Source of the DNA: Syntrophomonadaceae bacterium
Lineage (GTDB): Bacteria; Bacillota; Dethiobacteria; DTU022; PWGO01
Direction: 5' to 3'
Assembly: GCA_003550565.1 (NCBI GenBank)
Contig: PUKQ01000225.1
Location: 1 to 38,291 of the forward strand
Length of the DNA: 38,291 bases
The position numbers were made by a program, and so were the translations under genes. Under the pieces are notes generated by a model, which saw only the letters and a program-made list of their open reading frames with translations, made no database searches and was not told the origin of the DNA. Within the stretch, counting starts at the first letter, position 1. Each line of letters begins with the position of its first letter. Shown in pieces: positions 18,955 to 25,408 of this stretch.

Positions 18955-20373
18955 ATGCATAAACTACAGCCAATGGGGCCAAATTGCTATCGCATTCCCA
19001 AAGAAGGAAACATGCGGGTAGAGGCCAGAGTTTATCTCAAAAATGAGATGCTGCCTTCCTTTGAAGAAAGTTCAGCCAGGCAGCTGATGGATGCAGCTTC
19101 CTTGCCCGGAATTTACAAGTACGTCATCGGCATGCCAGATATCCATACCGGCTTCGGGCTTCCCATCGGAGGCATTATGGCCATGGATGCCCAAAATGGA
19201 ATTGTCTCAGCCGGAGCCGTGGGAATGGATATAAACTGCGGGGTGCGGCTATTGAAAACTAACATTCCTGCAAATCAGATCTCTTCTTCTGTTCAGCGAA
19301 AGCTCCTAGAGGCCATAACACATTCTGTTCCCTCCGGCACCGGTAAAAAAAGCAAGCATGCCGGGAGCTCCGGCCCGAAATTAAAAAATATCCTTACCGA
19401 TGGTGTGCCGGTTTTGCTGCAAATGGGCATTGGCAGGTCCGAAGACCTGGAATATATTGAAGAACAAGGAGCTTTCCCCGGAGGTGACCCCGCAGCCGTC
19501 AGCAAAGAAGCGTTATCCCGAGCCGATCAATTATCTACCCTCGGTGGTGGAAATCACTTTATCGAGATCGGATACGTGGCAGAAATTTTTGAGCAAAATA
19601 TTGCCCATCTCATGGGCCTTGAAGAAGGAAATTTAAGCGTTTTAATTCACACCGGCAGCCGTGGTTTTGGCCACCAGATTTGCACAGATTATTCCGAGTC
19701 TATGAAAAAAACAGCCAAACGCAATAAAATTGAGATTCCCACCGCCGGCCTTGCCGGGGCATTTATCGATTCCAAGGAAGGGAAAAACTACTTAGCTGCC
19801 ATGGCCTGCGCTGCAAATTTTGCCTTCTCTAACCGTCACTGGATAACTCACGACATCCGAAATGCTTTTGCGGAAGTTTTGGGTGGAAGTGACACCGATT
19901 ATGATTTGGGCGTCGTTTACGACCTGGCCCATAACATCGCCAAATTTGAAAAACTAAACGGGAAGAAACTGTTGATCCACCGCAAGGGAGCCACCCGCGC
20001 CCTTCCACCGGAACACCATCTTAATCCGCAGAAATACCACTCTACCGGCCACCCCGTTATCATCCCCGGTAGTATGGGCACCTCTTCATACGTGGTTACC
20101 GGCACCCAGAAGACATTCGAAACCTTTTGCTCGGTAAATCACGGCGCCGGCCGTAGATTATCCCGCAAAGCCGCCAAAAAAGAAATTCCTGTAGCTGAAA
20201 TGCAGGAAAAAATGGAAGGAATTATCACTTCGGGGAAACGAATGCAAACTTTTTTGGACGAAGCTCCTCAAGCTTATAAAAATATCGAACAGGTAGTTGA
20301 CACCCTTTCCGAAATAGATATTATCCGTAAAATTGCCCGCTTACACCCCCTTGCCGTGATTAAAGGCGATTAG
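18955..20373 (+). CDS. rtcB: RNA-splicing ligase / RNA repair ligase RtcB
   Basis: A GTP- and Mn-dependent ligase joining 2',3'-cyclic phosphate (or 3'-phosphate) and 5'-OH RNA ends. 'MPDIHTGFGLPIGG', 'GMDINCGVRLL' (metal Cys), 'LGGGNHFIEIG', 'HTGSRGFGHQ' and 'IHRKGATRALPPEH' (the guanylated His) are all present. At 472 residues it is full length. AAAGGAGAAACG precedes the ATG. It follows surE by 36 bases and is last in the mtnP-mtaD-surE-rtcB run. No archease cofactor gene is in the window. Confidence 0.96.
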   Translation: MHKLQPMGPNCYRIPKEGNMRVEARVYLKNEMLPSFEESSARQLMDAASLPGIYKYVIGMPDIHTGFGLPIGGIMAMDAQNGIVSAGAVGMDINCGVRLLKTNIPANQISSSVQRKLLEAITHSVPSGTGKKSKHAGSSGPKLKNILTDGVPVLLQMGIGRSEDLEYIEEQGAFPGGDPAAVSKEALSRADQLSTLGGGNHFIEIGYVAEIFEQNIAHLMGLEEGNLSVLIHTGSRGFGHQICTDYSESMKKTAKRNKIEIPTAGLAGAFIDSKEGKNYLAAMACAANFAFSNRHWITHDIRNAFAEVLGGSDTDYDLGVVYDLAHNIAKFEKLNGKKLLIHRKGATRALPPEHHLNPQKYHSTGHPVIIPGSMGTSSYVVTGTQKTFETFCSVNHGAGRRLSRKAAKKEIPVAEMQEKMEGIITSGKRMQTFLDEAPQAYKNIEQVVDTLSEIDIIRKIARLHPLAVIKGD

Positions 20374-20431
20374 GATTAAATATTTTGCATTCAACGCCCC
20401 TTCCTCTTGACTTATGAACCCCCTAAGCACA

Positions 20432-20461
20432 TTGACATCGTAATCCTTATAAGCTTATAAT
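20432..20461 (+). promoter_or_regulatory. Sigma-A promoter of the glycyl radical enzyme gene
   Basis: Perfect TTGACA, 18 bases, perfect TATAAT, about 60 bases before the start codon. It separates the glycyl radical enzyme from the rtcB operon. Confidence 0.75.
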
Positions 20462-20523
20462 ACAATTACAAAATATTCAGCCAAATAATGTATCCAAACT
20501 AACAGGAGGAAAGGATGGAATAA

Positions 20524-22902
20524 ATGGCCTTACCCCTGACTCAGACCGAAAACAAACGTATCACCACCATTTTGCAGGACATGCAAAATGAAAATTACTC
20601 CATTTGTTTGGAACGCCCCACTCTTTTAGAGCAGTATTGGCAATCGAAGCAGGGTAAGGGCAAACATCCGTATATTCAACGGGCAGAAGCTTTGGCCTAT
20701 GTTTATAACCACCGCGTGCCTCGCATATACCGCGAAGAATTGATCGTAGGAAATATTTCCTCTAAACGCATTGCCGCTAACTATTATTCAGAAGGAGGAT
20801 CAGTGCATATCCTGGAGGATCTATTCCAGCTAGAAAAAAGGCCGACCATCCCCATTCACCTTAGTTCCCCAGAAAAGAAAAAACTTCTTTCTATGGGGCT
20901 GCGTCATTCAAAGCACGCCATAGCCACTAAAGCCCTTCTTCGTCCGGGACGAATAAGTCAGTTTTTTGAATTTTTCCGGGCCAAAAGATTTTTTGTCACC
21001 GAAGAAGCCGGAATTTCACATCTGGTCCCAGATTACAATACACTTATATATAAGGGATTAATACATGCGGCTAAAATTGCTCGTTCCAAGCTGGAAGAAG
21101 AAACCCTGGATAATGATCGGGAAGCTTTTTATCAGAGTATAATTTTAGTAGTAGACGGCATCAAAAATATGGCCGAAAATTTAGCCAATGCCTCTGAAAT
21201 AAAAGCCTCCAAAATTCAAAATCCCACCCGCCGCCGTGAACTTTTGGAAATCGCCGAAATTTGTCGCCACGTGCCTTATCATCCGGCCCGGAGCTTTCGT
21301 GAAGGGCTGCAGTCAGCCTGGTTAATTCACGTGGCTTTAAACCTGGAAGATTTTGAACAGGGCATATCCTTTGGGCGGCTGGATCGCTTTCTTTACCCTC
21401 TTTACAAGCAAGACCTGGAAAAAGGGCTCATCACCGAAGACAAAGCTCGAGAACTACTGGCCTGCTTTTGTCTCAAATGTGGCGAAACAATCCCCCTTTA
21501 TTCTCGGCGCATTAACAAATTTTTCGGAGGCAACGCCGTGGGACAAGGCATTACCCTGGGCGGAACCGATGAAGAAGGCAATGATACTACTAACGAACTC
21601 TCTCGCCTTTTCATGGAAGCGTTTTCTTTAGTGATGACCAGAGAACCCAGCCTGCATGCCCGTATTCATGAAAATACCCCGGATTGGTTTTGGGATGAAT
21701 GTGCCCGTTTGATCCAAAAAGGTAGCGGCAGGCCATCTCTGTTCAATGATCATACTATTACAGAAGCACTTGTAGAAGCGGGTATTAAAAAGGAGCATGC
21801 GCGTGATTATGCCGTTATAGGTTGCGTAGAAATGGGAAGCCAGGGGCGCACCTATAATTCCTCCGATGCCGGCCTTTTTAACCTTCCCCTCTGCCTGGAA
21901 TTAGCTCTTAATAGAGGAAAACGCTTTCAGGGAGGCACACGCATCGGAACTACCACTCCGCCTGTTGAATCCATGCAGTCATTTGATGATGTTTTGGAGG
22001 CATTTCGCAAACAGATAGAACACGGAGTAGCCGAAATGGTAGATGTTATTACCACATTGGAAAAAACTTATCGTATTCACCGTCCCACTCCTCTGAACTC
22101 CATACTTACTGAGGGGTGCCTGGAAAAAGGGAAAGATGTTACCTGGGGAGGCGCCTTGTATGATTTCACCTCAGTTCAGGGAGTTGGCCTCGCCGATGCA
22201 GGTGATTCCTTATATGCCCTTAAAGAACTCGTTTTCACGGAAAAATCCCTAACCCTGCCTCAGTTGGTTAACATACTTCGGGCTAATTTTAAAGACCACA
22301 AAACTTTACAAGCACGCTTGCAAAATCGTTTCCCCAAGTATGGGAACAACCACCGCGAAGCTGATCATATGGTGCAAATAGTAGCAGATATTTACACCGA
22401 AACAGTTAACAAGCACATTAATACGCGGGGTGGACAATATATACCCGGTTTCTACTCTATGACCTGTCATCAGGGATTCGGTGAAGCAACCGGCGCACTT
22501 CCCAATGGAAGGCCTGCCGGTGCCAGGTTCTCTAATGGCATTTCTCCAAGCGATGGAGCTGATGTTAATGGCCCCACTGCTGTATTAAATTCCGCTGCCA
22601 GCTTGGACAACCGCCATTGGGTTAACTGTTGCGCCCTTAACTTTAAGTTTGAAAAAAATACGGTCCTAAACAAAAAAGGAAGGGAAACCATAGCCGCCCT
22701 AATAAAGACATTCTTCCGACTGGGCGGAATGCAAACTCAAATCAATGTACTGGATACCAAACAATTATTAGAGGCTCGGGAAAACCCACAAAGATATCCC
22801 GGCCTGCTTGTACGCATCTCCGGATACTGTGCCTATTTTCATGATTTATCCCCGGAAGTCCAAGACGAGATAATTGAACGTACTACTCATTGCGTCAATT
22901 AA
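20524..22902 (+). CDS. Glycyl radical enzyme (PFL2 / dehydratase-type) of unknown substrate
   Basis: An oxygen-sensitive radical enzyme of 792 residues. The thiyl-radical cysteine is Cys434 in 'GCVEMG', with Glu436 as the candidate general base; the Cys-Val-Glu triad is typical of the dehydratase/decarboxylase/lyase branch and not of pyruvate formate-lyase (CC). The glycyl loop is 'RISGYCAYF', Gly767, in the usual C-terminal context 'SPEVQDEIIERT'. Cys434/Glu436 coincide with the numbering I recall for 4-hydroxyproline dehydratase, but the other substrate residues I recall for it are not at the same positions, so I leave the substrate open. No radical-SAM activase is encoded in the window. 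AGGAGGAAAGG precedes a two-codon ATG-GAA-TAA, after which the gene's ATG follows immediately. Confidence 0.9.
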   Translation: MALPLTQTENKRITTILQDMQNENYSICLERPTLLEQYWQSKQGKGKHPYIQRAEALAYVYNHRVPRIYREELIVGNISSKRIAANYYSEGGSVHILEDLFQLEKRPTIPIHLSSPEKKKLLSMGLRHSKHAIATKALLRPGRISQFFEFFRAKRFFVTEEAGISHLVPDYNTLIYKGLIHAAKIARSKLEEETLDNDREAFYQSIILVVDGIKNMAENLANASEIKASKIQNPTRRRELLEIAEICRHVPYHPARSFREGLQSAWLIHVALNLEDFEQGISFGRLDRFLYPLYKQDLEKGLITEDKARELLACFCLKCGETIPLYSRRINKFFGGNAVGQGITLGGTDEEGNDTTNELSRLFMEAFSLVMTREPSLHARIHENTPDWFWDECARLIQKGSGRPSLFNDHTITEALVEAGIKKEHARDYAVIGCVEMGSQGRTYNSSDAGLFNLPLCLELALNRGKRFQGGTRIGTTTPPVESMQSFDDVLEAFRKQIEHGVAEMVDVITTLEKTYRIHRPTPLNSILTEGCLEKGKDVTWGGALYDFTSVQGVGLADAGDSLYALKELVFTEKSLTLPQLVNILRANFKDHKTLQARLQNRFPKYGNNHREADHMVQIVADIYTETVNKHINTRGGQYIPGFYSMTCHQGFGEATGALPNGRPAGARFSNGISPSDGADVNGPTAVLNSAASLDNRHWVNCCALNFKFEKNTVLNKKGRETIAALIKTFFRLGGMQTQINVLDTKQLLEARENPQRYPGLLVRISGYCAYFHDLSPEVQDEIIERTTHCVN

Positions 22903-22907
22903 TTTAT

Positions 22908-24056
22908 TTATTCCCTGTTTTCACAAAAACGTTTTTCCTCATTTAGCTTACATGGCCGGCGGCAGGGACCCCCTTCAAAACACCAGAGAAATTCTTCCGG
23001 CATTATTTCCGCCACATTTTTAAATAACTCAGGTTCCGGCTTTTCATGTGTGGAACTATAAGTGTTAACAAAAATAACCGGTCGTTCTTTTTCAACAGTT
23101 TCACCACGGCAATAATCCATAAGGGATGCCGCCGCTTTCCCCGTATAACAATTTTCCAGCTCAATATTTTCATAATTAAAGAAGGAACTCACTGCTTCTT
23201 TGCCTTCCGGTGTGGGAAAACCATACCCATCTCCCAGGTAATTATCATCTATCACCAGTTGGGGAGCAAGATTGGCGCTCTTTTCATTAACATCAACGCC
23301 TAAAGAAGAAAGATGGAGCAGGGCTCGGAAAGCTAATTTGACCACTCGCTTATGATTTAATACCACAGAGGGAACAACCTGGACTGCATGGACTACCGTC
23401 TGCATTTGCGCTAAATGAACTCCCGCCAGCAGTCCCGCCGCAGTGCCGCCGGTGCCGCCGGCAACAAATATGGCCCCGGGGTCAGGAAGCCCTTTTTCTT
23501 TAAGCTGTGTTTGCATTTCCAAAACTGCATTAATATAACCCAGAGTAGAAAGCGGAGTAGAACCACCCGGCAAGAGAATATATGGAGCTTGTTTTTCATT
23601 CTTTAAAATGGACATATAATGGCGAAGATATTCCCAAGCGACTCCTTTGTAGTCACGTACAAAAAACATCCGGGTGCCAAATTTCTTATCAAGCAGCAGA
23701 TTAGCCTGGACATGTTCATTAATGGGTTGACAAAAAAATAATCCCACAGTTTCCAAACCCAACTCACGTCCCAGAGCTCCCGCTGCCAAAACATGATGAG
23801 AACCAAGGCCTCCCGCAGTAATAATTGTGTTTTTTCCCCGGCGGCGCACATCAGCAAAAAGCAATTCCAACTTTCTTACTTTGTTGCCACCATATACCCT
23901 GCTGGTAAGATCATCACGTTTAACAAACACTTTTTTTCCCAGCAGGGCTGACAAGCTTTCAAGCTTTTGCAGGGGGGTAGGCCAATCCCCCAGGTTCTCG
24001 CGAAGAACCTTTTTCCTTAATTGAGGATACCTGAGGAAAAGTTCGTAGTCACTCAA
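22908..24056 (-). CDS. PLP-dependent D-cysteine desulfhydrase / ACC-deaminase family protein
   Basis: A fold-type II PLP enzyme. 'VFVKRDDLTS' and 'GGNKVRKLEL' carry the PLP lysine, 'GGLGSHHVLAAG' follows, and 'VAGGTGGTAAGLLAG' is the phosphate loop. The family degrades D-cysteine to pyruvate, sulfide and ammonia, or ACC to 2-oxobutyrate; sequence alone does not separate these. The track ORF opens at a TTG 19 codons earlier without a ribosome site; I prefer the TTG at 24056 behind AGGATGG (382 residues). The C-terminal ~60 residues exceed the usual length and end with four cysteines ('WCFEGGPCRRPC', then 'RFC'). It converges with the glycyl radical enzyme, leaving five bases between the stop codons. 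Confidence 0.85.
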   Translation of the reverse strand: MSDYELFLRYPQLRKKVLRENLGDWPTPLQKLESLSALLGKKVFVKRDDLTSRVYGGNKVRKLELLFADVRRRGKNTIITAGGLGSHHVLAAGALGRELGLETVGLFFCQPINEHVQANLLLDKKFGTRMFFVRDYKGVAWEYLRHYMSILKNEKQAPYILLPGGSTPLSTLGYINAVLEMQTQLKEKGLPDPGAIFVAGGTGGTAAGLLAGVHLAQMQTVVHAVQVVPSVVLNHKRVVKLAFRALLHLSSLGVDVNEKSANLAPQLVIDDNYLGDGYGFPTPEGKEAVSSFFNYENIELENCYTGKAAASLMDYCRGETVEKERPVIFVNTYSSTHEKPEPELFKNVAEIMPEEFLWCFEGGPCRRPCKLNEEKRFCENRE

Positions 24057-24225
24057 AATTACACCATCCTGTAGTTTGTTTTTTCCATTATAACATAAAC
24101 GGCTTTCCTGCAATTATTAAACATAGAATGCTGAGAATATAAACACATCACTTCTAAAATGCCTAAAATATCCTGTCTACTGCAATTGACAAAGAAATAA
24201 GAATAAATTACAATTAATATGTAAT

Positions 24226-24301
24226 AGGGGAGTAGCTCAATAGGCAGAGCAGCGGCCTCCAAAGCCGAAGGTTGCGGGTTCGAGTCCTGTCTCCCCTGCC
24301 A
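24226..24301 (+). tRNA. tRNA-Trp (anticodon CCA)
   Basis: A complete cloverleaf: acceptor AGGGGAG/CTCCCCT, D stem GCTC/GAGC, anticodon loop CTCCAAA, T stem GCGGG/CCTGT with loop TTCGAGT, discriminator G and encoded CCA. The anticodon stem has a mismatch at its outer pair (G27-A43), and the T stem uses two G-T pairs. Confidence 0.97.
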
Positions 24302-24343
24302 AGATAATGAGGGTTAACACCCCCTAACCCTAAAAATTCAGAC

Positions 24344-24387
24344 AGAACCCACCGTTTTGTTTTTTGCAGATGTTTGCGGTGGGTTCT
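24344..24387. terminator. Candidate bidirectional terminator between tRNA-Trp and the DUF1992 gene
   Basis: AGAACCCACCG and CGGTGGGTTCT are perfect 11-base arms with a 22-base loop between convergent transcription units. On the minus strand it is followed by GTCTGAATTTTT. A smaller GGGTTA/TAACCC repeat (24311-24330) lies just after the tRNA. Confidence 0.5.
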
Positions 24388-24508
24388 TGGCATACTCTTT
24401 CTGTGAATTTCTAACCGATTCAGCCTAAATTTTTGGCTATCCGGTAAATTAAAACTTTCTTTCGCAACAGGGAAAAAGGCAACGTGCGGTCACACACTAC
24501 CGATATAA

Positions 24509-24937: not shown

Positions 24938-25408
24938 TTAAAAGTTCAATTTGCTTAAATTCTCAATGCAATTATTGATGCTCTGCTCGCGAGAAGATTT
25001 GGACCAGATAACAACTTCTGTACCCAATACATTAGCTCCTTTTGATATACAAATATCTTTCATCTGGTTCACGGCTCTATTCCCTCCCGTCCATGTTAAG
25101 GGCAGCTGTTTGGTGACAAAACAGGCAACATTCTTTCCCGAAAGCGATGGAAGCTGTTCTAAATAAGATTTCATCACCGTTGCTAAAGAAAACGCATGCA
25201 CCGGAGCACCAAAAATAATCGCATCATAATGATCTACTGCGGGCGTGTTAGTAAACTTAAAATTGCCCTCTCCCGGTTTTGCTTCGCTGTTGATGCTCAC
25301 TTGCTCAAGTGTTGCTGAATATTTTTCCCCATCAAGAATTTCTTTTAATTTTTGAGCAACGGTATAGGTGTTGCCCGTGTGAGAATAAACAATAATACCT
25401 ATATTCAT
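24938..25408 (-). CDS. Flavodoxin-like FMN protein
   Basis: A 156-residue flavodoxin fold. 'GIIVYSHTGNTYTVAQKL' is the FMN-phosphate loop (SxTGNT), and 'DAIIFGAPVHAFS' and 'FVTKQLPLTWTGGNRAV' are the loops around the isoalloxazine ring. It is probably a low-potential electron carrier or a small FMN reductase. GGAGGGGG three bases before the ATG is a very strong ribosome binding site. It lies 48 bases after the propeller gene. Flavodoxin next to a possible iron transporter fits the common switch from ferredoxin to flavodoxin at low iron (inference). Confidence 0.88.
   Translation of the reverse strand: MNIGIIVYSHTGNTYTVAQKLKEILDGEKYSATLEQVSINSEAKPGEGNFKFTNTPAVDHYDAIIFGAPVHAFSLATVMKSYLEQLPSLSGKNVACFVTKQLPLTWTGGNRAVNQMKDICISKGANVLGTEVVIWSKSSREQSINNCIENLSKLNF

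Follow-up and report, generated by a model that had tools for sequence, protein, structure and literature searches.

A separate eliminase-type glycyl radical enzyme subfamily and the apparent loss of its adjacent activase in one bacterial order

Introduction

Glycyl radical enzymes (GREs) pass a glycyl radical on to a cysteine as a thiyl radical, which abstracts a hydrogen atom from the substrate; a leaving group is then lost with the help of a base, and the hydrogen is returned. A radical-SAM activating enzyme (AE, or activase) is required to install the glycyl radical. Work on characterized GRE groups has brought distinct anaerobic reactions to light, such as those in the breakdown of choline, hydroxyproline and isethionate. 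The initial annotation of a 38,291-nucleotide stretch of DNA from a Syntrophomonadaceae bacterium (hereafter the window) had described an orphan GRE, with a promoter of its own, with no activase in the window and possibly of an undescribed substrate class. Which subfamily does this enzyme belong to, and how would it acquire its radical? A lineage free of the activase lets one ask, in a natural setting, whether a GRE activase is specific or can serve several enzymes, and activase sharing bears on the prediction and engineering of radical enzymes.

Results and Discussion

The GRE gene and its neighbors

An intact GRE is encoded at 20524-22902, in the following setting:

18955-20373, plus strand: RtcB RNA ligase, upstream neighbor, not conserved beside the GREs of relatives
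20432-20461, plus strand: promoter of the GRE gene, sigma-70-type, TTGACA-18-TATAAT, 12 of 12 consensus positions
20504-20526, plus strand: ribosome-binding site AGGAGG (20504-20509), leader ATG GAA TAA (20515-20523) and GRE start codon ATG (20524), read directly from the sequence
20524-22902, plus strand: GRE, eliminase-type, probable new subfamily, 792 residues, ATG start, with Cys434, Glu436, His166, Asp448 and Gly767
22908-24113, minus strand: fold-type II PLP lyase of the D-cysteine desulfhydrase family (PALP) with a four-cysteine C-terminal tail, Pfam PALP 114 bits, convergent with the GRE gene
24938-25408, minus strand: flavodoxin-like protein, 156 residues, Flavodoxin_5 38 bits

Both Pfam domains of the GRE are matched at full length (PFL-like, 564 bits; Gly_radical, 98 bits), and in the alignment its start at MAL is kept in close relatives. 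Position 20432, at which the initial annotation had begun the feature, is the first base of the promoter and not of the open reading frame. The promoter itself is as claimed, being the sole site with all 12 consensus positions within 20200-24400, a region in which weaker sites are abundant (18 found versus 7.1 expected). The two-codon leader has ideal spacing from AGGAGG and abuts the GRE start codon; it is not obvious upstream of the GRE copies in two related genomes (G038 and G214). RtcB probably does not belong to the GRE system, and the flavodoxin-like protein is weakly linked to it as a possible reductant for an activase. An open reading frame resembling the flavodoxin-like protein lies directly upstream of a broken GRE copy in another genome (L054, discussed below).

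Catalytic and substrate residues

Alignment places the catalytic residues where the initial annotation had read them. Cys434-Val435-Glu436, in 'IGCVEMGSQGRTY', forms the CxE motif, and Gly767, in 'VRISGYCAYF', lies in the R.xGY motif of the Gly_radical domain; both are invariant among the aligned relatives. CxE on the Cys loop is the motif of GRE eliminases (PMC7077986). The Cys418-Cys419 pair of PFL is absent, with Gly433-Cys434 instead, and the score against TIGR01255 is 130 bits versus 994.

The window GRE shares the CxE motif with trans-4-hydroxy-L-proline dehydratase (HypD), whose His160 is retained as His166, but the remaining HypD substrate residues used for comparison (from PMC7077986) are all replaced in the alignment: Asp278 by Gln279, Ser334 by Phe334, Asp339 by Val339, Phe340 by Gly340 and Tyr450 by Leu451. 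A Phe in the space of HypD Ser334 is frequent in glycerol dehydratase, CutC, propanediol dehydratase and isethionate lyase (PMC7077986). Choline TMA-lyase (CutC) is like the window GRE in fold and CxE motif and unlike it at Asp216, the position of which is taken by His166. His281-Ser282 of glycerol dehydratase (GDH) is replaced by Gln279-Gly280, while His164 and Asp447 are retained as His166 and Asp448, so that two of the four residues of the glycerol/propanediol dehydratase set are kept; we take these four and CutC Asp216 to be active-site residues. The initial annotation had seen no clear match to the hydroxyproline, choline and diol subfamilies, which is correct for the first two and for the diol enzymes holds at His281 and Ser282 but not at His164 and Asp447.

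Clade-specific residues number 27 in the group described below, and include Asn86, Tyr87, Asp276, Thr322, Val339, Thr529 and Cys769, the last lying two residues past the radical glycine. An AlphaFold model (pTM 0.83, with low confidence in the Cys- and Gly-loop regions) has as its closest solved folds glycerol dehydratase 1r8w (TM 0.91), followed by propanediol dehydratase and A. fulgidus PFL2.

Phylogenetic placement

A tree of 63 GREs puts the window enzyme in a clade of 19 sequences with 100% SH-aLRT support, taken from a quick search in which some long branches were flagged, and with a long stem (1.44 changes per column). The clade is apart from HypD, CutC, GDH/propanediol dehydratase, PflD and YbiW, and its nearest neighbor is A. 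fulgidus PFL2 (the references 2f3o, 1r8w and 5i2a were taken from alignment output). Its members come from Bacillota, Desulfobacterota, Chloroflexota and 'Deltaproteobacteria', and are 52-66% identical to the window GRE, versus at most 35% for any reference aligned. A published GRE network found that a threshold of ~60% identity separates functionally distinct enzymes (PMC6453916); by that yardstick the references, lying far below it, would include no isofunctional relative, and distant clade members may themselves differ in function.

The window GRE falls well short of the cut-off of every NCBIfam equivalog model, including those for HypD (NF043068, 480 bits versus 1100), CutC (TIGR04394, 460 versus 1050) and sulfopropanediol dehydratase HpsG/HpfG (NF048011 and NF048009, 456 and 450 versus 1000), and the broad PFL2-3 subfamily model is narrowly missed (643 versus 678). 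BssA reaches 213 bits versus 472 for A. fulgidus PFL2 (2f3o), and the family-identified neighbors of the GRE are not X-succinate synthase small subunits, very short open reading frames lying outside that search. Isethionate sulfite-lyase, compared by fold and identity, is 28% identical. A. fulgidus PFL2 is the best match among solved structures (35% identity) and has the active-site stretches TE.AGISH, EQ.IS and SSDA and His378 in common with the window GRE; it sits on a different branch, however, without the clade's signature of Cys769, Thr529, Asn86-Tyr87 and Asp276, and is itself a GRE of unknown function. A literature search for A. fulgidus PFL2, or for such a GRE together with a D-cysteine desulfhydrase, found nothing relevant.

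Clustering with a characterized subfamily, named beforehand as the result that would speak against a separate class, was thus seen neither in the tree nor in the NCBIfam scores nor in the alignment. The clade is conserved in several phyla, Desulfobacterota among them, and we found no assigned reaction for it. It is likely, judged from sequence comparison, to be a subfamily without an assigned reaction among the GREs compared, the benzylsuccinate- and isethionate-type enzymes being set apart by score or fold only. The residue mismatches with HypD and CutC, together with the lack of an activase, make a substrate class outside the assigned ones likely. The undescribed class proposed initially is well supported as a separate, unassigned subfamily but is not proven as a new reaction.

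Activases in the genome and among relatives

The initial annotation was also right that the window holds no radical-SAM activase. The GRE is flanked by RtcB upstream and the PLP lyase downstream, and TIGR02494 gives a single match within the window, a weak radical-SAM one at 169-438, at 24 bits versus a cut-off of 174. The window is the entire contig C260 of an assembly of 279 contigs (2.65 Mb, 96.5% complete, 6.4% contamination). That assembly holds six GREs and three activases above the TIGR02494 cut-off, and a profile built from the clade's own activases recovers the same three. Those on contigs C188 and C87 each adjoin their own GRE, and the one on C173 is in the same open reading frame as a GRE; the genome search that the initial annotation had proposed therefore yields no unpaired activase in the assembly.

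A scan with the single protein returned no relatives, while a three-sequence alignment returned 20 named relatives, to which order-level searches added others. Among the 20 clade loci in which the neighborhood can be assessed, an activase adjoins the GRE in 16 (L064, L065, L067-L079 and L081); loci cut by contig ends (G213, L055, L080 and L082) were left out of this count. All four exceptions belong to the window's order: the window itself, G038 (L053/L066), G214 (L138) and G030, whose copy is broken (L054/L083). Two other members of that order (L064 and L065) keep the adjacent activase. With all exceptions confined to one order, the absence would be a derived state of one lineage. The initial description of an orphan does not, then, hold as a property of the enzyme: 'orphan' here is, as far as gene content indicates, a lineage-level loss.

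In G214 the nearest activase lies 0.9 kb from the clade GRE and belongs to a benzylsuccinate-synthase-like GRE. One candidate for an unpaired activase, G038:C51, was rejected, since it completes the second activase of contig C29 as its 3' part. The activase beside the GRE in G016 and G210 does not group with the other clade activases; the idea that it is a replacement of other origin was dropped, since a single origin was not rejected (p-AU 0.33).

The activase-less GRE is still under strong purifying constraint in these genomes. At 241 columns invariant in 13 relatives from outside the order, the window GRE departs at 16, the GREs of L064 and L065 at 17 and 19 and that of G038 at 18. For G213-G214, an unsaturated pair in which no own activase is seen, dN/dS is 0.11, little different from the 0.08 for the activase-bearing G016-G210; synonymous sites of the window GRE are saturated.

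The neighboring PLP lyase and permease

The best solved relative of the convergent PLP lyase is D-cysteine desulfhydrase. The lyase falls below every NCBIfam equivalog cut-off (D-cysteine desulfhydrase, 161 bits versus 429) and carries a YTGK motif at what is presumably the position where ACC deaminases have Glu. A sulfonate-lyase reading was rejected, as D-cysteate sulfo-lyase scores 189 bits versus a cut-off of 450 and independent support was not found. The tail WCF...C...C...FC is common to the lyases inspected (window, L053, L077 and L137-L144) except that of G024, whose open reading frame ends early; the aligned portions of solved D-cysteine desulfhydrases show no such tail, which may form a metal or Fe-S site.

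In G038, G213, G214 and a distant Bacillota locus, L077, a PALP homologue sits immediately upstream of the GRE; the L077 genes run permease, PLP lyase, GRE, activase. A divergent amino-acid permease adjoins the lyase in those loci, and the window's genome has a 64% homologue of it at another place. In the 71 genomes surveyed from the order, GRE and lyase are found together more often than expected: both are present in five, the GRE alone in two, the lyase alone in six and neither in 58 (Fisher p = 6e-4, with related genomes treated as independent). Permease and lyase occur without the clade GRE in G034 and G014, and most Desulfobacterota have the GRE with its activase and without PALP. The placement of the GRE beside a PLP lyase, and usually an amino-acid permease too, suggests that it takes part in the breakdown of an imported amino-acid-like compound, although it is not certain that lyase and GRE share a pathway. 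As with HypD, an amino-acid-like substrate is conceivable here.

Proposed mechanism and alternative explanations

On balance we lean towards an eliminase-type GRE of its own subfamily that acts on an imported amino-acid-like substrate and is activated in trans, its own activase having been lost in the lineage; here we infer the elimination chemistry, the trans-activation and the substrate class. By homology, a glycyl radical at Gly767 would pass to Cys434, and the thiyl radical formed there would attack a small polar substrate, abstracting a hydrogen atom; Glu436, His166 and Asp448 would assist deprotonation and loss of a neighboring leaving group, and the product radical would take the hydrogen back. 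The activase gene would have been lost in the window's genome and several other members of the order, most relatives keeping one beside the GRE, and the radical would be installed by the activase of another GRE, that of C188, that of C87 or the activase domain of C173. Trans-activation is the most economical reading where no dedicated activase is present and is, in our analysis, the best-supported account. The C173 domain is one candidate, as its GRE and the window GRE both have an unusual GYC at the glycyl loop, which is only a hint. E. coli TdcE, a ketobutyrate formate-lyase and close paralogue of PflB, is likewise a GRE without its own activase that is activated in trans, but sequence divergence among the GREs of the window's genome is large. 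In published precedents, PFL-AE activates both PFL and TdcE (PMC7476758), and one activase gene generally adjoins the genes of two threonyl radical enzyme homologues (PMC11528403). A fuller and more tentative proposal is that a multi-phylum subfamily performs an undescribed elimination on a compound fed or cleared by the lyase and permease, and that in the window's order it depends on an activase shared with other GREs, possibly the fused one.

The organism might instead have a dedicated activase that the assembly lacks or divides between contig ends. The fragmentation of this metagenome-assembled genome, and the activase that in G038 is indeed split between two contigs, speak for this, yet the window runs on both sides of the GRE without a gap, so an activase is at least not adjacent; G038 and G214 (the latter only 83% complete), moreover, carry an intact clade GRE and, like the window's genome, no unpaired activase. 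It is unlikely that several assemblies would each have missed the same gene independently, and we give this explanation a modest chance. That an unrelated radical-SAM protein outside the activase models serves the GRE seems to us highly improbable: the genome has many radical-SAM genes with weak TIGR02494 scores, of which L061 and L062 look AmmeMemoRadiSam-like by eye, but the weak matches are short or of different architecture, and clade members outside the order have PFLE/PFLC-type activases beside the GRE. Characterized GREs, to our knowledge, use a PFLE/PFLC-type activase or PFLA.

Two further explanations concern the enzyme itself. It could be a divergent member of a characterized eliminase group, most likely B12-independent glycerol/1,2-propanediol dehydratase (1r8w, 5i2g), with which it shares the CxE motif, the best fold match, the equivalents of His166 and Asp448 and Phe334. 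We regard this as unlikely given the 33% identity to both dehydratases, the substitution at His281-Ser282, the equivalog scores far below cut-off, the 27 clade-specific residues and a tree that places the clade elsewhere. Very unlikely, too, is a relic heading to decay after activase loss. Activases are gone in several order members, the clade GRE of G030 (L054:8832-10699, plus strand, contig C76) is missing ~260 internal codons and switches frame where the two parts join, and G026 has a C-terminal GRE fragment only, at a contig end. The G030 copy is, however, either a decayed gene or a misassembly, and the copies in the window, G038, G213 and G214 are full length with their catalytic residues; the low dN/dS of G213-G214, the lack of excess change at invariant positions, the perfect promoter and the good ribosome-binding site of the window gene likewise argue against decay.

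Other GREs of the genome and the order

The C173 frame (L058:3998-7318, minus strand) encodes 1106 residues, with the activase domain at 1-255 and a complete GRE at 270-1105. Similar long fused frames occur at G016:C171 and G210:C63, and their presence in these two further genomes of the order makes an assembly artefact unlikely for C173. In a sample of 399 genomes from the phylum, in which neither G016 nor G210 showed up, the window's genome gave the only strong match to the fusion.

The GREs on C223 and C2 are also without an adjoining activase. That on C223 (L056:7669-10155, plus strand) lies near genes that by eye are short-chain dehydrogenase-like and 2-hydroxyacyl-CoA dehydratase-like. 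That on C2 (L057:2119-5145, plus strand) has an N-terminal extension of ~200 residues, SCP2-like by eye and with no Pfam hit, and extended GREs of this type also occur in L027 and L031. A benzylsuccinate-synthase-like GRE occurs together with an activase and a flavin-reductase-like gene at L138:4470-8759 and L059:6513-10618, and in G214 this module stands tail-to-tail with the clade GRE.
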